Shown piece by piece: positions 1,667 to 23,281 of a stretch of DNA of 33,528 nt. Under the pieces are notes generated by a model. The model did no database searches. It saw nothing but the letters and a program-made list of their open reading frames with translations, and had not been told where the DNA came from. How positions within the stretch are numbered: the stretch's first letter is position 1; every line of letters begins with the position of its first letter. A program made the position numbers and the translations under genes. The stretch is from a virus. The stretch is from positions 1-33,528 of IMG/VR virus record IMGVR_UViG_3300044613_002817, one strand, 5' to 3'.

Positions 1667-2611
1667 ATGAGCGCCAGTCTCAAGATCGACACCGCACCCG
1701 CCATGAAGGCATTCCGCGCGTATGCTCTGGAGACTAACCGCGAGTTGTCGGCGGAGTTGAATCGGCGGATGTTCTACGTCTGCCTCCGTGCATTTGTGCT
1801 GATGCCTCCGCGTGAGATACAAGCAGCTAAGGCACGGGCAAAGGCTTACATAGAAGAGATGCTAAATGCTCGGCAGATCAAGAGGTTGAACGCCGCGCAA
1901 AAGTCGGTTGGCTTTGGCAATCGGTTTTCCGTGAACCGAATCACAAAGAAGGGAGTCAATGTGGTTCGATCAATTGCGGCGCAGAATCGCGCTGGCAAAA
2001 ACGTCCGGGCATTTATCAAGCGCGTTGAGCAAACTGCGCTCCGGCGGGTCCACCTGATTGCCCAGGCTCGCAGGATTAAACGCGGCCAAAAAGCGTTGCT
2101 GCCGAAGGAAATCAAAGCACAAGCGCAGACAGGCAAGAGCGCATTCCGCAAAGGTGTCGGCAGTGTCCGCAGCGGCGCCGCGGCACAAGGCCGGGTAAAA
2201 GCAGCAATCGTCAAGGTGCTAGACTCGCTCAGCAAAGCCAACATCGGCCGCGCATTCAGCCAATTCGGGCGAGAGGCAAAGGTAAACCGAAAAGGTGTTG
2301 TCACGCGACCAGAGACGCCGCCAAACTCTGCGCTGGCCAAGATTGCCGGAGAGTATGGGGTTGGCTTTAACGCCAAGTCATCCGTCGGCGTCATGGGTGG
2401 ATTGCGGGCAAACACAGCCGCGGCAAAGCCAGGGCTAAATCCCGTTGTGTCTTTTCACTTGGAAGGAACAATTCAGGCCGACCAAGTTTCAAAGGTGAAC
2501 GCTAAACTTGCCGGCGCGTTTCAACAGGCTCTTAATGACGAAAAAGCGCAGCTAGAAGCCAAGATGGCAGCCAAGGCGCAAGCGATTGCGGACAAGTATT
2601 CCGCGCGATGA
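1667..2611 (+). CDS. Basic tail-completion-like protein (HK97 gp10-like candidate)
   Basis: The 314-residue product is strongly basic, with many Lys, Arg and Ala and long helical segments (about 50-210). The more ordered C-terminal part ends in a helical, charged segment. The opening MSASLKIDTA then an MKAF segment and the place before a tail terminator and tube gene fit the HK97 gp10-like tail-completion family, though it is larger than usual. The match is by general character, not a decisive motif. The start has no Shine-Dalgarno sequence (leader ends in aacaacct). The gene is visibly less GC3-rich than the cassette upstream. It ends at 2611, one base before the antisense ligase stop at 2613. 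Confidence 0.55.
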   Translation: MSASLKIDTAPAMKAFRAYALETNRELSAELNRRMFYVCLRAFVLMPPREIQAAKARAKAYIEEMLNARQIKRLNAAQKSVGFGNRFSVNRITKKGVNVVRSIAAQNRAGKNVRAFIKRVEQTALRRVHLIAQARRIKRGQKALLPKEIKAQAQTGKSAFRKGVGSVRSGAAAQGRVKAAIVKVLDSLSKANIGRAFSQFGREAKVNRKGVVTRPETPPNSALAKIAGEYGVGFNAKSSVGVMGGLRANTAAAKPGLNPVVSFHLEGTIQADQVSKVNAKLAGAFQQALNDEKAQLEAKMAAKAQAIADKYSAR

Positions 2612-2612
2612 A

Positions 2613-3254
2613 TCACTCAAGAGCAAACGAGAAGGTTGTCACTTCTGGCGCGGGTTTGGCCGGCGACGGGATGACCTTGACCTTGAGGATGTCGCCAGAT
2701 CGGCCGGGCGCGTATGGCATGCCGGGGCGGCGAGCGATTAGACCTTCGCCGCGTTCCGCTTGGACTCTCTGCATTTGCCAAATTGCCGCGGCGTTGTCGT
2801 GGCATTCCCAACGCTCAACGGGGAGCACCGGTCCCCATGAACGCACGGTCGCCATCCGCTCAAGCCAATCGCCGGCAGCATCGGGAGCATCGAAAACGCG
2901 GAACTTGAAAGTGCGGTCAATCGTCCCGAACCGCACGCCGGCCGAAGCCTTGGCGAACTGTCCACGTCCGCACCACATTTCGCCGTCAAGCCGCACGCCG
3001 GCCGGCAGTTCCGCGCGGAACCAATCGGGCAGCGTGATTTCGTTGCCCTGCCGGGTCCACATCTTCGCGCCATCCCAGAACGCCCGGCACCCGTCAAACT
3101 TCTCCGACAGATACCAGCCGGTCAGGTCTTCGCCCTGCCAGTCCATACCGTGCGCTAGTTCGTCCGTGTTCACGGGGCGAATCAATACTCCGGCGGGTTT
3201 ACTGTCAACCGTAAAAGCATGAGCGCCAGCCTCGACATGACCGGCTCCACGCAA
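2613..3254 (-). CDS. ATP-dependent DNA ligase, adenylation domain only
   Basis: The maximal frame (213 codons from TTG 3254) holds every nucleotidyltransferase motif of ATP-dependent ligases: EKFDGCRA with nucleophile Lys at residue 52 (motif I), LDGEMW (III), FRVFD (IIIa), GEGLIAR (IV) and ILKVKV (V). A RQGN..PDWF segment between I and III matches the small LigA-like bacterial ligases. Only about 20 residues follow motif V, so the C-terminal OB-fold is absent, which is unusual for a nick-sealing enzyme. The true start is probably internal (TTG 3185, GTG 3173 or ATG 3146), because the first 36 bases overlap the rightward gene at 3219 and an operator-like site lies at 3198-3208. LAHG near residue 33 resembles the conserved N-terminal entry, favouring 3173 or earlier. 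It is the only leftward gene in the tail module. It could seal nicks or adenylate another substrate. Confidence 0.88.
   Translation of the reverse strand: MRGAGHVEAGAHAFTVDSKPAGVLIRPVNTDELAHGMDWQGEDLTGWYLSEKFDGCRAFWDGAKMWTRQGNEITLPDWFRAELPAGVRLDGEMWCGRGQFAKASAGVRFGTIDRTFKFRVFDAPDAAGDWLERMATVRSWGPVLPVERWECHDNAAAIWQMQRVQAERGEGLIARRPGMPYAPGRSGDILKVKVIPSPAKPAPEVTTFSFALE
3198..3208 (-). promoter_or_regulatory. Operator/promoter-like site before the ligase
   Basis: On the leftward strand this reads TTGACAGTAAA, matching the TTGACRGTGAA sites of the early control region near 12.4-12.7 kb except for one base. TTGACA is also a perfect sigma70-like -35 box. A weak -10-like ATTGAT or TATTGA lies about 15-17 bases downstream, which would start transcription inside the maximal ligase frame and support a start at 3173 or 3146. 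It may be both promoter and repressor site. Confidence 0.4.
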
Positions 3255-3704
3255 CGCGCCGTTGCGGCGTGGCTGTCCGCTCAGCTTCCGACGTGGGCCG
3301 CACTGACGCCGACGTGGGTTCCGCGCATCCTCACGGGCTACCAGCGCGCCACGGCTGGGGATGCGTTGTCGCAGATGGAAGCGGGCGGGGAGCCGGATGT
3401 CATCATTGTGGAGTGTCAGTCAGCCGACCCGGATTCTCCAATTGAGCCGACCCACTGGGATGCCGAAGTGATTGTCCGTGTCCGGCATGATTGCGACCGG
3501 GTTCCGGAATCGGTTCACAGTGCGCGCGTCCATGCGCTCCTGACGGTCATTCACGACACAGAAGCGGCGGAGACGCTTTCAGCGGAGGACGATTACACCG
3601 CTCAAATCCTCATTCCGGGCCGGCAGTATCAATCCAACTCCGGCCGCAGTTTTGAGACTTCAATCACGTTCACCGTGAAAGGGTTCCCAAGGACTTCAAC
3701 GTAA
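3219..3704 (+). CDS. Tail terminator-like protein
   Basis: The 161-residue product has an N-terminal helix (about 10-25), a long beta-rich middle with a WDAEVIVRVRHD strand near 85-96, a helix with SARVHAL, and a C-terminal strand region ending ETSITFTVKGF. This is the general plan of lambda gpU/HK97-type tail terminators, which cap the tube and join it to the head. Position directly before the tube protein agrees. A second protein of similar plan is encoded at 31516-31986, so the assignment between the two is uncertain. The start region ATGAGCGCCAGCCTC nearly repeats that of the gene at 1667. Confidence 0.6.
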   Translation: MSASLDMTGSTQRAVAAWLSAQLPTWAALTPTWVPRILTGYQRATAGDALSQMEAGGEPDVIIVECQSADPDSPIEPTHWDAEVIVRVRHDCDRVPESVHSARVHALLTVIHDTEAAETLSAEDDYTAQILIPGRQYQSNSGRSFETSITFTVKGFPRTST

Positions 3705-7170: not shown

Positions 7171-10100
7171 ATGCCGCTCCAATTCACCCAAGCGCGGGTT
7201 GTCGCAGCCGGCGACCCGGTAGGCGCTGGCGACATGGCGTCGCTGGCGCAGTCCGTGAACACGCGGCTTGTGTCCGGCATTGGCGACTTCCACTACCGGG
7301 TGGCCTATTACCTTCATTCCTTGTTCCGCAAGATGCGGAATGACGAGGGTTCGCTTGCGACGCCTGATGCGGAGTTCTGGACGTTCTACCAAGGGCTAGG
7401 TCCGAATGACGGCGAGTGGCCGACGGCGGAGCCGGGGGAAGCCACGGGCGCGAACCTAGCGAACCCGCTGAATCAATTCGTCTTCGGGTCCGAGGCGTTG
7501 AACCTAGACGGCGAACGCGGGCGCCTTGGCAACGTGAACACAATCCTCGCGTTGCCACCCGGACAGGAAGCTACGGCGGCGGATTACTGGCAGCTTGGGA
7601 AAGACCAGCGGGGCGCTTACGATCCGTCCAATGGGAATTACTCGTCGCCAATGCTGGGGCTTGGCATGTCCTACGCCTACATCCGAACGAGCCTGACAAG
7701 CCCATACGGAAACAGCTACGGCGGATACTTCCCAACGCCAGCCAATGCGGGCGGCTGCGACCCCATTTTTGATGCCCTTGGAGCAATCTATCCGCCTAAC
7801 CTTCAGATTCAGTTCACCAACCTCGAAACCGGCGAGGTTGTCGCTTACTGCGGGACTTGCCCAGATGCCACGCTTTGTCCGGACAATGACCGCATCGCGT
7901 TCCTGTCTTACTCGCCGTTCGCCTACTTCGTATTCTTATACGATGGCGCGGTTGATATTTACCCCAAGGCGCAATGGATCGAGGGTCCATACACATCCGA
8001 CGCGCGGCTTTCCAAGGCCAGCGCCAATGCCATTAGCCGCGCCGTGGCTCAGTTCTCCGCTGAGTTTCGGGGCGACGCAACGCAGCGCGCGGAACCGGAC
8101 CAAGGCCAGTCCAAGGCGTTCCTTTTCGAGGAGTTCCTGACTGAGCAATACGCCTTGGCTCCGCAAATTGGCACGACGATTGGCGAAGACGTGTTGCCGT
8201 TTTATCCGGCGTTTTACAGGCTTGGTTCATCGGACTTGGAACAGGGCTTCGGACCGATGCCGGTCAACTCCGGCGGCGTTGACTTCACTTTCCCGGAAGG
8301 TTCGCTTTCGACTCACTTCCTACTGGTCGCGCGCGGTGTGGCTTCAAGCTCCGTGACGTTCACCATTACCGAAAACGGAGAGCCGGTGGACACGCGGACG
8401 CTGACAATCGGAGCGGACGGCGCGGCATCTGAGATCGTCAAATGGCCGACGGCGCGGACGTTCACCAAGCTGGAAGTCCAATGCGAGGCGTTCACCTTTT
8501 CCGATGCTGCCGGCTTCGTAGCAGTGGAGTTCAACTGCCTGCTCGAATACAAGCCGCAGCTTTACGACCTCTACGCCACGCTTCGCCTGTCAACCTACCG
8601 CGGCGGCATGGGCATGGATGGCAGCGGGATTGAGGAAAGCCAGTCGCGCGAGGTTTATCAGAACCTTCAGACCTATGGCTGCATCATTCCGGTCGCCGAA
8701 GCGTCAGGCGGCCTGGATGTCGCGGTGAATCAGAACGCGGTCTATGACGCCGCGCGCCGCATGTCTAAATGCGTCCGCATCCTGCCCCGGCACAACCTCG
8801 TTGGCTATGCCGTGCAAGGTAGCAAGTCGGTCCTATACTTCCGCCGCTACGCCTTCGGCATGAGTCACACCACGCCGATTGACCTACTCGCTGGAATAGC
8901 CCCCAGCGCAACGCAGTTGGCCACTGGCGAGCTTTTGATTGGACGGACGTATGAAGTGACCTCCGGCTTTATCACGCACGGCACGGCGCAATACAACGCG
9001 GGCGATACGTTCACGGCGACCAGTGCGGCGTTCTCCGGCAGCGGCGTGGTGCGCGAAACCTCCGGCGTTTACGACGCCTACCCGCGCGGATACAGCAACA
9101 AGTGGGTCGTGGATTTCGGTTTCAAGCCCTACTATTGGAGCGATTCGAGCATCTGGAAACTCGACGCCTTCGCCGACGTTTACAACGCGCCCTTCGGCAA
9201 CCGTTGCACGTTCGATGACTACGGGATTGCGAACGATTCCAACACGCGGGCGCATGTCGGCAACGGTATCAGACCGCTGTATTTTGGCGAAAATCCATCG
9301 GGCTACAACTACATGGTCACACCGTCGGCCGGTGGCGGGTTCGATCATGCGAACATCGGCGCGAGTTCTCAGCAGATGAAGTCATGCCGGATTTACGAAC
9401 CGCCGGCAGAGCTTGAATCCACGGAGATAGACGACACTTGGAGCGCGACGTTCGGCGAGCAGATCGTGAAGGTGACTCTGACCGGCCGGCTGCATTATCA
9501 CACCACGCTCGCGCCTGCCTCAATATCAGCCGACACAAGCACCTGGAACCTCACCACGCTCGCAACTGAGGTTGCCGAACGGCGCACGGTTGAGAACGCC
9601 ATCCGTGAATACATCCTTTACGACCAGACCGGCCGCAACTGTGGCAACGCCGGGGCGGGCGACTTCTCCGCGACATCGGACTTCACGACAGATTACGACG
9701 TGTTCGGAACGTGCATCCCGAGCATCTTCTTTGTTCAGCAAATCCCGGAGCCTTGGCGGGATGGCAACACGTCGGACAACGCTACCGACTCGCCCGCTCT
9801 GTCGGATCACCTGAGGCTTGTGGAGCTTTACCTTCGCGCCGGTTGCGAGGGGTTCGTTGACGGTCGCACTTCAACGGCCAATTCCTGCTCAGTCAGCACC
9901 ACGACGCTTTACGATTACACATGGGAAAACCTGAACTTTGAGGCGCACGCAAATCGCCATGTTGCGCTGATGCCTGAGGAAATCAGGCCGGACAATCCGC
10001 CGGGGCATGGGCCGATGCCGATGACCTACTTTTACGCGGAGACGTTCAACAGCTTGGCGAAATGCGTGAACCGGTTGACCACGGCGCGCGTGATGATTCC

Positions 10101-11178: not shown

Positions 11179-11362
11179 GGTCCGCGAGTCCTAGTCGGTA
11201 GGAGTCGCAAGCGTGAACCCAAAACATCCACGGGGATCCAGCGCCATCTTGAGCCGCTGACATGACGCGCTTGTGCATCAATTCTCCGCCGGCATGGCTG
11301 GCATTTGTAAACACCGCCGCGCATTGACGGCACCGATACCAGAGGCATTTGGTGGAGTTCAT
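11108..11362 (-). CDS. Small zinc-binding-like protein
   Basis: The 84-residue protein starts with ATG 11362, overlapping the upstream leftward stop (ATGA). WYRCRQCAAVF near residues 8-18 gives a CxxC knuckle; later His and Cys (HKR, VHACDS) could complete a metal site. A LGLADLIG segment near 57-64 recurs in small phage zinc proteins as I remember them, a weak memory. The C-terminal 20 residues overlap the convergent rightward gene and may be less constrained. A near-perfect hairpin at 11184-11208 falls inside the coding region without a T-run. Confidence 0.5.
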   Translation of the reverse strand: MNSTKCLWYRCRQCAAVFTNASHAGGELMHKRVMSAAQDGAGSPWMFWVHACDSYRLGLADLIGSGPIPATAPQIDPEPSTTSN

Positions 11363-18726: not shown

Positions 18727-19703
18727 TCAATCAAACAATCTGCGCCAGGTATGCGCTGTATAATGGCGACTGCGTTGAAGTGATGCGCTCGCTGCCGGAC
18801 GAAAAAGTTGACCTAAGCATTTACTCTCCACCCTTCTGCGGACTCTACAATTACAGCAGCAGTGAGCGCGACCTAAGCAACTGCGCCAGCTATCAGGAGT
18901 TTTTTGTTCATTACGGCTACGTGGTTGCGGAAATTGCGCGGCTAACCAAGCCGGGACGAATTACCGCTGTTCATTGCATGGACGTGCCCGGCAAAGGAAA
19001 CGGAGAAACCGCCCGCATGGGTTGCGGCGCAAATGCAGGAACCGGACTGATCGACTTCCCCGGCGACATCATCCGGCTTCACGAGCAGCACGGTTTCCAA
19101 TTCATGGGCCGGCGCGCGATTTGGAAGGAACCGCTTGGCGTCCGTCTCCGAACAATGGCGAAGGGATTGGCACACGCTCAGATCGTGGAAGACTCCACGC
19201 TCTGTGATGTGGCTAGCGCCGACTACCTGTTGACGTTCCGAAAGAAGGGCGAGAACACGGTTCCGGTTTCGCATCCGACCGGACTTCATTCCTACGCCGG
19301 AGAGCGTGTAATCCCTCATGAGCTTCAGCAATACAAGGGGCATACAGGGAAGCAGACCGAGAACCGCTTTAGTCATTGGATTTGGCGTCAATACGCGAGC
19401 AGCTTCTGGGATGACATTCGGATCGAGCGGACCTTGCCTTACAAAGAAAGCCGGGAGTCTGATGACGAGCGCCACGTTCACCCGCTGCAACTCGACGTGA
19501 TCGAGCGCGCTTGCGTCCTGTGGAGCAATCCCGGCGAGGTTGTGCTGACACCGTTCATGGGCGTCGGCAGTGAGGTGTATGGCGCTGTCCTGAATGGCCG
19601 GAAGGGCATCGGCGTGGAATTGAAGACAGCCTACTACAACCAAGCTGTCCGCAACCTGGCCGCGGTTGAAGAGCACGTTGAACAGGAGCTTATCCCGACA
19701 TGA
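18717..19703 (+). CDS. DNA methyltransferase (N4-C / N6-A type, beta order)
   Basis: The 328-residue product has catalytic motif IV SPPF at residues 37-40 near the N terminus. The SAM-binding motif I region TPFMGVGSEVYGAVL then GIGVEL lies near the C terminus (about 279-303). The order IV-then-I is that of beta-class amino-methyltransferases. SPPF favours N4-cytosine, but adenine cannot be excluded. The middle ~200 residues form the target-recognition part and contain DIIRLHEQHGFQFMGRRAIWKEP. No restriction endonuclease is adjacent, so it is a solitary phage methylase, probably for evading host restriction. Confidence 0.88.
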   Translation: MAIINQTICARYALYNGDCVEVMRSLPDEKVDLSIYSPPFCGLYNYSSSERDLSNCASYQEFFVHYGYVVAEIARLTKPGRITAVHCMDVPGKGNGETARMGCGANAGTGLIDFPGDIIRLHEQHGFQFMGRRAIWKEPLGVRLRTMAKGLAHAQIVEDSTLCDVASADYLLTFRKKGENTVPVSHPTGLHSYAGERVIPHELQQYKGHTGKQTENRFSHWIWRQYASSFWDDIRIERTLPYKESRESDDERHVHPLQLDVIERACVLWSNPGEVVLTPFMGVGSEVYGAVLNGRKGIGVELKTAYYNQAVRNLAAVEEHVEQELIPT

Positions 19704-20278
19704 GCACGCACCGACTACTAGATGCCGTCAAACCCGGCCTAACCGCCGACTCAATCCGCGAAATGCTGGCCCGCAACGGCATGACCGTGGTGGCCAAGCC
19801 GGCAAAGCTGTGTAATAAGACGCGCAAGATGCCCGGCAAAGTTCGCCGACCGCGTGCCGAATCGGTCGCACTAGCCGCTCAGATGCGAAACCAAGGCAAA
19901 GACAACGCGGACATCGCCGCGGCCTTAGGCGTCACGCGACACTACGTTTCCGAGCTGTTGCCACGCGAACAGAACGGGAAGAAGACCAAGCACCCGCCGG
20001 CCAATCGCGTTAAACCAATGCGCCAAAGCGTGCGAATGCAGAACGTCCAAGCGCGCAGGGACAAGGACCGGGAGTTTGCCATCGCGAAGCGCAAAGAAGG
20101 TTGGACGATGGCGGTCATTGCCGGCGCCTTGGACCGTTCGCCGCGCTACGTGCAGGACATCCTGCCTCAGGAGTGGTGCGGGAACATCAACAAGGGCCAC
20201 AACGCGGAGATACTGCGGACGCATCCGAAGTGCGTGGCGATGCGCGGGGCCAGGGTGGTGAGGGAGGCAAAAGCATGA
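19700..20278 (+). CDS. Double helix-turn-helix DNA-binding protein
   Basis: The 192-residue basic product contains two similar HTH units. Unit 1 is at residues 57-89 (AAQMRNQGKDNADIAAALGV then TRHYVSELLPR). Unit 2 is at 126-156 (AIAKRKEGWTMAVIAGAL then RSPRYVQDILP). They align residue by residue around the turn and the YV.(E/D).LP end, so it looks like an internal duplication. Between them lies a Lys/Arg-rich linker. It could be a transcription regulator of late genes or a replication cofactor. Start overlaps the methylase stop (ATGA 19700-19703). Confidence 0.7.
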   Translation: MSTHRLLDAVKPGLTADSIREMLARNGMTVVAKPAKLCNKTRKMPGKVRRPRAESVALAAQMRNQGKDNADIAAALGVTRHYVSELLPREQNGKKTKHPPANRVKPMRQSVRMQNVQARRDKDREFAIAKRKEGWTMAVIAGALDRSPRYVQDILPQEWCGNINKGHNAEILRTHPKCVAMRGARVVREAKA

Positions 20279-21008: not shown

Positions 21009-21950
21009 ATGAGAATCCGAACAGTTAAGCCCGAATTTTTCACCCACGAAGGCATCTTTGAAGCCGAGCAATCTAGCGGCCTTCCCCTTCGCTTGGCGTT
21101 CATCGGGCTATGGTGCGCCGCAGATCGTGAAGGGCGTTTCCGGTGGCAACCGCGCCGCCTTGGAATCCAGATTCTGCCCTACGATGACTTGGACTTTTCA
21201 CGCGTGCTCGACGCGTTGACCACGCGTGGCTTTCTCGTGAAGTATCGCGTGAAAGGGGCGTCTTTTGGGTGCATTCCGAGCTTCATTCGGCACCAAGTCA
21301 TCAACAACAAGGAGTCAGACTCGGTTTTGCCGGACCCGAACGAAGAAACCTCCGAAAACATATCAAATCAGGCGGAAAACGACGCGTCGGCCACGCGTGA
21401 AGCACGCGTTGACCACGCGACAGCCACGCCACTTTTTCTAGATCAAGGGGAAGGGAAGGGAAGGGAAGGGAAAGGAAAGGAAGGAAACGCGGCTTCGCCG
21501 TGGCACGTTGCCCTTGGCTTGGAAATGCCGGAAGCACTCCGGACGGAACCTTGCATGGAAGCGGCAAGGCTATGGCTAAAATACAAGTCGGAACGTCGTG
21601 AAGGCTACAAGTCAATCGGGCTGAAGACGGCACTGACGCAATGGGCTACGGAATACACGCCGGCGACTTTCCCGGCTGCCGTCAATTCGTCTGTTGCTGC
21701 AAACTACGCCGGATTGTTCCCGTCCAAGTCGAATCACCAGTCGGCAGAAAAGGCCAAGCCAATGTGGCAACAGATCAAAGAACTCGAAGCCCGCATCGAC
21801 ACGCACCCCGGAAACTGGAACTGGCTGAAATACAATTCCAAGACGGCGACCAAAGAGCAAAAGGACGAATACCGGGCGCTACTGAAGCAGCTTGAGGCAA
21901 TGCAGGCCGGGCAGGAACCGCTGCCGATGGGTGAAGGGGATATTCCGTAA
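21009..21950 (+). CDS. Replication initiator (RepO/DnaD-like)
   Basis: The 313-residue product opens MRIRTVKPEFFTHEGIFEAE, the hallmark start of a large family of phage replication proteins. LRLAFIGLWCAADREGRFRW and LPYDDLDFSRVLDALTTRGF follow (about 28-75), a winged-helix DNA-binding domain. Residues about 115-165 are a low-complexity linker (..EGKGREGKGKEG..), followed by a helical C-terminal domain (about 170-240) that may bind the helicase. It lies directly upstream of DnaB, as lambda O lies before P. Tandem ACGCGT repeats occur in its coding sequence, so it probably carries the origin it recognises. Confidence 0.8.
   Translation: MRIRTVKPEFFTHEGIFEAEQSSGLPLRLAFIGLWCAADREGRFRWQPRRLGIQILPYDDLDFSRVLDALTTRGFLVKYRVKGASFGCIPSFIRHQVINNKESDSVLPDPNEETSENISNQAENDASATREARVDHATATPLFLDQGEGKGREGKGKEGNAASPWHVALGLEMPEALRTEPCMEAARLWLKYKSERREGYKSIGLKTALTQWATEYTPATFPAAVNSSVAANYAGLFPSKSNHQSAEKAKPMWQQIKELEARIDTHPGNWNWLKYNSKTATKEQKDEYRALLKQLEAMQAGQEPLPMGEGDIP
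21200..21227. repeat. Iteron cluster 1: three ACGCGT units, 11-bp period
   Basis: ACGCGT starts at 21200, 21211 and 21222, exactly 11 bases apart, in the winged-helix part of the initiator gene. The last two units plus spacer (ACGCGTTGACCACGCG, 21211-21226) are repeated exactly in cluster 2. Spacing of one helical turn places all units on the same face of the DNA. Confidence 0.6.
21382..21430. repeat. Iteron cluster 2: five ACGCG units, 11-bp period
   Basis: Units start at 21382, 21393, 21404, 21415 and 21426, each 11 bases apart: three ACGCGT, one ACGCGA, one ACGCC. The 16 bases 21404-21419 are identical to 21211-21226. The DNA encodes the linker of the initiator, where protein constraint is low, so the regularity is better explained by protein binding to the DNA. 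Confidence 0.7.
21382..21487. other. Candidate phage replication origin
   Basis: Iteron cluster 2 is followed by a short AT-rich stretch (actttttcta, 21431-21440) and then a 43-base all-purine tract of GGGAA-type repeats (21445-21487). Iterons followed by an easily melted or purine-rich segment, inside the initiator gene and before the helicase gene, is the arrangement of lambda ori in gene O. Function is inferred. Confidence 0.6.
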
Positions 21951-23281
21951 TGGACCTATCCCGCACAGACCGTCTGCCACCGCACTCCCTAGAAGCGGAG
22001 CAGGGTGTCCTAGGTTGTTGCCTCATTTCGCCGAATGAGTGCATCGGCCAGTCGGTTGAAGCGTTGAAGCGCGGGGAAGCGGAGTTTTACGACATGCGGC
22101 ATCAGACTTTGTATTCGCATTTGGTCGCAATGTGGGATGCTCAGCAGCCGATTGACCTCATTTCGTTTCAGCAACGGCTTAAAGACGCGGGACAACTGGA
22201 AGGAGTCGGCGGGTTGGCTTACCTGGCTGAATTGGACGGCAAGGTGCCATCATCCGCTAATCTCGGTTACTACCTCGGCATCCTCAAAGAGAAGTCCACG
22301 CTTCGTCACCTGCTCCAAGCGGCCGTTGGCATCGTCGGCAAGGTCTACGAAGCCAGCGGACCCATTGATGCCTTGGTTGACGAAGCGGAGCGTGAAATCC
22401 TAAAAGTCGGCGAGGACTCAGGGGCCGGCGAGATTGAGCTAACACAGAAGGAACACGTCCGCGCGGCGATAGATGCGATTCAGCAAAGGTTCGGCGGCCA
22501 GATGACCGGACTACCTACCGGAATCCGTTCACTCGATAAGCTCACCGGCGGATTGCAGCCAAGCGACATGATCGTCATCGGCGCCAGGCCTTCGTGCGGC
22601 AAGACATCGCTAGCCGTCCAAATCGGAATGGTCGCTGCGGAGGCTGGATGTGGTGTCGGCATCTTCTCGCTTGAAATGACGGCAAGCATGTTGAACCAGC
22701 GCGCGCTTGGAACCATTGCCCGCGTCAACGTCCAGAAAGGCCATTGGACCGAGGGAGACATGCGCGCAGTGTCAATCGCCGCCACTAAGCTCTCAAAACT
22801 CCCGCTCTACATCGATGACCGTTCCGGCCTCAAGATGGCTCAGATCAAAGCCAAGGCCCGGCGCTGGCATAAGAAGCACGGGATTCGGTTGCTCATCATT
22901 GATTACCTAACGCTGATTCGGCCAAGGCTGGACAAGGCTGACCGGCAAGCCTCCGTCGCTGAAATCTCCAATGACATCAAAGGGCTGGCTAAGGAGTTGA
23001 AAGTCCCCGTGATTGCGTTGGCTCAGTTGAACCGTGACATTGAAAAGGGTAAAGAGCGCAAGCCAACGCTGAGTGACCTAAGGGAGTCGGGGCAGATCGA
23101 ACAAGACGCCGACGTGATTTGTTTCCTCTACAAGGAAGACCCTAACCACGAACCGTCCGACGTGGTTGTGCAGGTCAACCTTCTAGTCGCCAAGCAACGT
23201 AACGGCGGGCTGGATGAGATACGTCTGAGCTTTCACCGTGAGACGACACGCTTTGAAGAAGGGTCACCGATTGAGGATTGA
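21950..23281 (+). CDS. dnaB: DnaB-type replicative DNA helicase
   Basis: The 443-residue product has the DnaB N-terminal domain opening LPPHSLEAEQGVLGCCLISP (about 9-28) and a linker. The RecA-like C-terminal domain has LPTGIRSLDKLTGGLQP (about 188-204), Walker A GARPSCGKT (about 211-219), IFSLEM, and Walker B IRLLIIDYLTLI (about 311-322). PVIALAQLNR then LRESGQIEQDADVI follow. Length is near that of E. coli DnaB. It would be loaded at the origin by the upstream initiator. ATG 21950 overlaps the previous stop by one base (TAATG). Confidence 0.93.
   Translation: MDLSRTDRLPPHSLEAEQGVLGCCLISPNECIGQSVEALKRGEAEFYDMRHQTLYSHLVAMWDAQQPIDLISFQQRLKDAGQLEGVGGLAYLAELDGKVPSSANLGYYLGILKEKSTLRHLLQAAVGIVGKVYEASGPIDALVDEAEREILKVGEDSGAGEIELTQKEHVRAAIDAIQQRFGGQMTGLPTGIRSLDKLTGGLQPSDMIVIGARPSCGKTSLAVQIGMVAAEAGCGVGIFSLEMTASMLNQRALGTIARVNVQKGHWTEGDMRAVSIAATKLSKLPLYIDDRSGLKMAQIKAKARRWHKKHGIRLLIIDYLTLIRPRLDKADRQASVAEISNDIKGLAKELKVPVIALAQLNRDIEKGKERKPTLSDLRESGQIEQDADVICFLYKEDPNHEPSDVVVQVNLLVAKQRNGGLDEIRLSFHRETTRFEEGSPIED

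Follow-up and report, generated by a model that had tools for sequence, protein, structure and literature searches.

What does an ACGCGT array with an exact 11-bp period do inside the coding sequence of a phage replication initiator? We address this for a 33,528-nucleotide stretch of viral DNA, hereafter the window, in which an earlier note made from the letters alone had read the gene as a lambda-O-like initiator carrying an in-gene origin and lying directly before DnaB. Comparative evidence supports that core reading well, and, judged from sequence, positions 21200-21487 are very probably a replication origin inside the gene of its own initiator, which would bind there, open the tract and load DnaB. 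The features concerned are:

21009..21950, + strand: gene of the replication initiator (313 aa; matches phrog_16167, 'replication initiation protein', at E=1.9e-46)
21200..21227, no strand: iteron cluster 1, within codons 64-73, with ACGCGT three times every 11 bp
21245..21250, no strand: degenerate outlying unit TCGCGT (in relatives, ACGCGT 22 or 33 bp past the third unit)
21382..21420, no strand: iteron cluster 2, within linker codons, with ACGCGT three times and then ACGCGA, every 11 bp
21445..21487, + strand: polypurine tract of GGGAA/GGAAA pentamers, a candidate strand-opening or helicase-loading element
21950..23281, + strand: DnaB-type replicative helicase (PF03796 E=8e-84, PF00772 E=1e-24, phrog_19)

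The array and its initiator gene

Six ACGCGT hexamers form the two clusters, at 21200, 21211 and 21222 and at 21382, 21393 and 21404, with every step equal to 11 bp; these positions bear out the exact 11-base steps reported earlier, as the 16-mer ACGCGTTGACCACGCG at 21211-21226 and 21404-21419 bears out a 16-base block common to both clusters. The earlier note had counted eight ACGCG units, of which seven stand (the six hexamers and ACGCGA at 21415) and the eighth does not, position 21426 reading ACGCC, which leaves seven units and a degenerate one. Similar density elsewhere, which the note had named as a possible objection, was not found for the hexamer, with only one of the window's seven copies (at 592) lying outside the clusters in 33.5 kb. 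The ACGCG pentamer, for which enrichment had been anticipated, showed none across the window (150 counted versus 161 expected), and the signal resides in the hexamer and its phase, not in the pentamer.

When synonymous codons of the initiator gene were reshuffled 50,000 times with the protein kept, the count of ACGCGT never rose above 4, short of six, and that of 11-bp pairs never above 2, short of four; a 43-nt purine run was reached 11 times. Array units occupy all three reading frames, and the 11-bp period therefore cannot come from a codon repeat.

The phrog_16167 profile matches residues 1-220 of the protein, that is its N-terminal part and linker, and no Pfam match was obtained at E up to 0.01. 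An AlphaFold model of the protein, made with 86 relatives, predicts a confident winged helix over residues ~1-115 (pLDDT >90 over about residues 10-110), a low-confidence, disordered linker at ~116-163 and a helical C-terminal part. In this model the cluster-1 codons 64-73 encode helix 63-72, the predicted recognition helix by its position in the winged-helix fold, and cluster 2 and the purine tract are encoded within the linker. Structural look-alikes included DnaD (2v79) and RepA-type initiators (4pt7 and 5kbj, Z 5.9 and 5.7 over ~93 residues of the N-terminal domain) amid many winged helices, the best match having a Z of 6.5, under the level that the tool calls safe. Foldseek at E up to 0.001 gave no match, only general winged helices, and a sequence search of solved structures with the initiator and lambda O as queries gave none.

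Downstream, the initiator stop codon and the DnaB start codon share one base. The next gene in relatives encodes DnaB, a primase-helicase, or a DnaC-like or lambda-P-like protein; of 125 relatives, 57 had a known helicase or loader downstream in a simple search, and in many prophages it gave no identity for the next gene. Some same-family initiators, at L384 13466-14455 (- strand) and in several Bordetella phages, match, or are annotated with, an HNH endonuclease domain (phrog_5718), which may be a homing insertion at the origin.

Conservation of the array and the polypurine tract

Relatives were drawn from viral contigs, GenBank phages and named bacterial genomes, the last including alpha-, beta- and gammaproteobacteria, Acidobacteria and others. 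Most have three ACGCGT at gene offset 191 or 194, a phased array at ~350-420 and then a purine tract, and in the alignment of relatives that the earlier note had proposed both the 11-bp phase and the position are kept. Among 139 thinned genes, both clusters are present in 69 and the downstream cluster only in 24, and a step of 11 occurs 156 times in cluster 2 and 148 times in cluster 1, with 22 as the second commonest; one subgroup (L080) alternates steps of 11 and 10, which fits the helical repeat. Outlying ACGCGT copies in relatives lie at gene offsets 235/236 and 246/247. A circular Bradyrhizobium record of 46.6 kb that contains phage genes also has the dual array and the tract, and six of its ten ACGCGT sites fall within the two clusters of the initiator gene.

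Codon usage among the relatives argues that the phase exceeds codon constraint, as the earlier note had held and as the reshuffling null and the use of three frames also indicate. Across the gene, synonymous sites approach saturation, the exception being cluster 1 with its almost fixed codons: mean excess codon identity is 0.49 over codons 64-73 and 0.02 over codons 1-60 (98 relatives), and fixation reaches 76/78 for S64 TCA, 78/82 for R65 CGC, 88/95 for A69 GCG and 75/75 for T72 ACG. The residues S64, R65, T72 and R73 are themselves retained mainly in genes with cluster 1. Where cluster 1 is ACGCGT, cluster 2 is ACGCGT as well (76 of 76 genes, compared with 10 of 19 without cluster 1). On this pattern, the array is under DNA-level selection and strongly conserved.

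The looped two-cluster complex suggested by the earlier note fared less well. Distances between clusters range from 146 to 214 bp, and they are as coherent in phase at the control period of 12 (R=0.71) as at period 11 (R=0.71, n=29); because coherence at 10.5-11 bp is matched at 12 and the samples are related, we claim no looping phase. A large related clade, moreover, has the downstream cluster only. Loop formation between the clusters is possible, and their spacing does not support it.

The 43-base purine-only tract reported past the second cluster is present at 21445-21487 and is the longest such run in the window (runner-up 23), and what did not hold is the view of it as an appendage of the array. 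Across 112 relatives its period is 5 nt, with excess match of +0.30 at lag 5, +0.24 at lag 10 and -0.22 at lag 3, and with lag 3 depleted it is not a codon repeat. Purine-only codons are preferred for Gly and Arg within it (GGR in 94% of Gly codons in the tract versus 42% elsewhere; AGG in 75% of Arg codons versus 8%). By this comparative measure the tract is a DNA element separate from the array, the second that is conserved. An AT-rich unwinding element was rejected, AT being 0.474 in the tract and 0.451 in the rest of the gene; in 90% of dual-cluster genes AT content is higher in the 60 bp ahead of cluster 2 than over the rest of the gene, but by 8 points only.

Such a tract could act by folding, as a G-quadruplex or triplex, instead of being the place where initiator or helicase is captured. 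The window's tract has four GGG runs two bases apart, and 45 of 103 tracts contain a G3 quadruplex motif; the majority, however, have no such motif, and the common denominator is the 5-nt period with its purine strand bias. We rejected a strict G-quadruplex on these counts and consider action by folding in general improbable, though a fair way from negligible.

Initiators of the RARNIKP subgroup have no purine tract (L083, from HK639, gene 2495-3358; L085, L086, L153, L156, L160, L162 and L168). Their linker codons instead hold CTGATTCC/CTGAATCC repeats at ~7-bp steps (peptide LIPDSLIPD), which are perhaps a different opening element.

Arrays and tracts across initiator families

Two scans approached the association from the DNA side. 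A search of viral contigs with the protein-free query (ACGCGTN5)3 returned at least 160 arrays in at least 116 loci, and among the matches listed 141 of 160 arrays (100 of 116 loci) fall in an open reading frame with the window's initiator domain. Several of the remaining arrays sit in other initiator families (phrog_9474, phrog_9327 and phrog_3992), the last two of which are presumably DUF1376-like primosomal proteins. The reverse scan took (GGGAA)4 as query and examined the 120 bp upstream for periodicity; it found 112 loci, 78 of them within the window's initiator domain, and the upstream sequence peaked only at lags 11, 22 and 33 (0.081, 0.057 and 0.040; control ~0). The lag-11 signal persists (0.072) in the 68 loci without ACGCGT, and the iterons upstream of (GGGAA)4 are mostly of other sequences, for example CTCACTGAGGA, TCGACGAGTCC and GGAAGCACCAC. 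Initiators of phrog_22470 and phrog_678 also carry the GGGAA tract.

Iteron type follows the protein, as the nearest neighbour by N-terminal domain has the same iteron class in 87% of cases (permutation mean 44%, maximum 61%). Because clusters, domain and iteron type co-vary, the gene's own product is the likeliest binder. ACGCGT is nevertheless common to initiators with differing helix-3 sequences and to other initiator families, so simple recognition by helix 3 is not proven.

These comparisons bear on three further explanations. The clusters could be operators at which the bound initiator represses, or which otherwise regulate, its own gene: initiators often autoregulate, the sites are within the gene, and cluster 1 is upstream and missing from related clades. 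Operators would have no need of a polypurine tract under its own DNA-level selection, yet cluster 2 is always linked to one downstream, and the sites lie 190-400 bp into the gene, away from the promoter; we regard the operator explanation as quite unlikely. Alternatively, another DNA-binding protein, from the host or from a nearby gene, might use the array for partition or regulation. The window does encode, 0.7 kb upstream of the initiator at 19700-20278, a protein with two helix-turn-helix segments (an HTH_23 match and a weak RepB/ParB-like one), but no homologue was found in the flanks of 125 array-bearing relatives, and this protein was rejected as the binder. The array sequence co-varies with the initiator N-domain, and the iterons vary widely among phages, which argues against a single host protein, leaving use by another binder very unlikely. 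That the repeats arise incidentally from protein sequence that is conserved or of low complexity (SRVLDALTTRG and EGKGREGKGKEG), both segments being well conserved or biased as amino acids, can practically be dismissed, and for cluster 1 and the tract it is refuted by the codon and period evidence, given that synonymous freezing is confined to cluster-1 codons, that units use three frames, that the tract repeats at 5 nt with lag 3 depleted, and that S64, R65, T72 and R73 are kept mainly alongside cluster 1.

A proposed origin and its known counterparts

We favor the origin reading because the codon null gave 0/50,000 and cluster 1 shows synonymous freezing, because the array scan hits the same initiator domain and ACGCGT co-occurs in clusters 1 and 2, and because iteron class tracks the N-domain and the tract has a 5-nt period. 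It also rests on the recovery of upstream 11-bp arrays by the reverse scan, on adjoining helicase or loader genes, on a downstream array that begins near the ori-lambda offset in O, and on the DnaD and RepA-type look-alikes. Against it stand the base composition of the tract, which differs from classical AT-rich unwinding elements, and the GC skew, where the change anticipated near 21.4 kb did not appear: there is no switch at the site in the window or at the array in the complete 46.6-kb circular relative, and the extremes lie elsewhere in both. The weak modelled fold matches, the occurrence of ACGCGT across differing helix-3 sequences and the frequent lack of identity for the next gene in prophages also count against it.

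In the proposed mechanism, initiator copies would bind palindromic S-ACGCGT-S sites through the N-terminal winged helix and, since the sites are 11 bp or one helical turn apart, would align on one face of the DNA. Cluster 2 with the adjoining tract would form the core site, and cluster 1 would be an extra set of sites belonging to one large clade, placed over predicted recognition-helix codons, that probably loads or stabilizes the assembly. The assembly would then stress or open the neighboring strand-asymmetric GGGAA tract, the purine or the pyrimidine strand would be captured, and DnaB from the next gene would be loaded there via the initiator C-terminal part. We infer the identity of the binder and the origin activity, as well as binding, opening and loading, for which the analogies are ori-lambda (PMC5043065, PMC7466680) and the RepA_N system of pSK41 (PMC5703833).

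An origin within its initiator gene is already a known arrangement, those of lambda and pSK41 sitting centrally in the gene (PMC5043065, PMC7466680, PMC5703833). Like the window, lambda has iterons within its initiator gene, O, which the initiator binds in lambda and would bind here; in both, a helicase or loader gene comes next and a strand-asymmetric purine tract adjoins the iterons (for lambda, PMC5043065). Ori-lambda iterons start at O nucleotide offset 348 and the downstream array here at ~350-420, and some relatives of the window's initiator precede a lambda-P-like gene. The lambda iterons, however, are inverted repeats of 18-19 bp that recur every 20-24 bp, with an A+T-rich region, the opening region being almost purely purine on one strand and yet A+T-rich (PMC5043065), whereas in the window the palindrome measures 6-8 bp and recurs at exactly 11 bp, the tract of G/A pentamers shows no AT-richness, and a second cluster occupies DNA-binding-domain codons. 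Here we found in-gene iterons followed by a purine-asymmetric tract, and neither 18-19 bp inverted repeats two turns apart nor an A+T-rich opening region; hhalign of the initiator against lambda O detected no homology (probability 0.1, E 0.45).

The pSK41 Rep has a ~120-aa N-terminal winged helix, an origin-encoded linker with Rep boxes central in rep, and a C-terminal domain (PMC5703833), a layout that the predicted architecture of the window's initiator resembles, although box sequence and spacing, the purine tract and the upstream cluster differ and the RepA_N domain PF06970 gave no Pfam match in it at E up to 0.01. PICI/SaPI origins also place two iteron sets around a central region (PMC6092414) but are located 3' of rep, are AT-rich at the centre and have an initiator of the primase type, whereas the window has both sets in the gene and its purine tract past the second. 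The sequence family of the window's protein is that of the phage replication initiation proteins phrog_16167/phrog_1408, whose entries describe no embedded origin; the DNA element is worked out here.

In the open-access literature we found no description of ACGCGT or GGGAA phage origins, an absence that is weak evidence, nor of the 11-bp single-turn grammar, the pentameric G/A tract, the recognition-helix cluster or the cross-family breadth. The layout recurs with other iterons in many unrelated phages, and start sites may thus be readable from sequence. We tentatively suggest, at somewhat less than even confidence, a general origin grammar across many phage lineages and initiator families, with family-specific 11-bp iterons followed by a GGGAA single-strand code (an analogue of the DnaA-trio), hidden in linker codons, and with one clade carrying the operator additionally in the codons for the very recognition helix by which it is read, such that specificity and target are the same sequence. 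If true, two marks in one gene, the 11-bp array and the GGGAA tract, would reveal phage and prophage origins and initiator specificities, and the natural series of initiator/iteron pairs would help to decipher winged-helix recognition. The opening element would then be GC-rich and strand-asymmetric, contrary to the AT-rich rule, and the coding sequence of a folded DNA-binding domain would be dictated by a second, DNA-level message.

Several loci depart from the common layout. Other initiator families at L335 (about 1375-1560) and L322 (about 11190-11260, - strand) have ACGCGT or near-ACGCGT iterons followed by AACAG or AGGAC pentamers, and the 5-nt period may extend beyond GGGAA. In L361, L377, L378, L418 and L443, (GGGAA)n follows GTGACGCGTGTTT units at wide spacing together with a TTCCGTGTAAAGGGG motif; no long initiator reading frame seems to enclose these tracts, which are possibly a separate, intergenic origin type. 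An L050-type initiator on the reverse strand of L325 (~base 7493, counted on the reverse complement) has an array of four perfect ACGCGTGAGGC-like units and a reading frame that stops in the linker past the expanded array; the expansion may have truncated the initiator, or the prophage may be defective.
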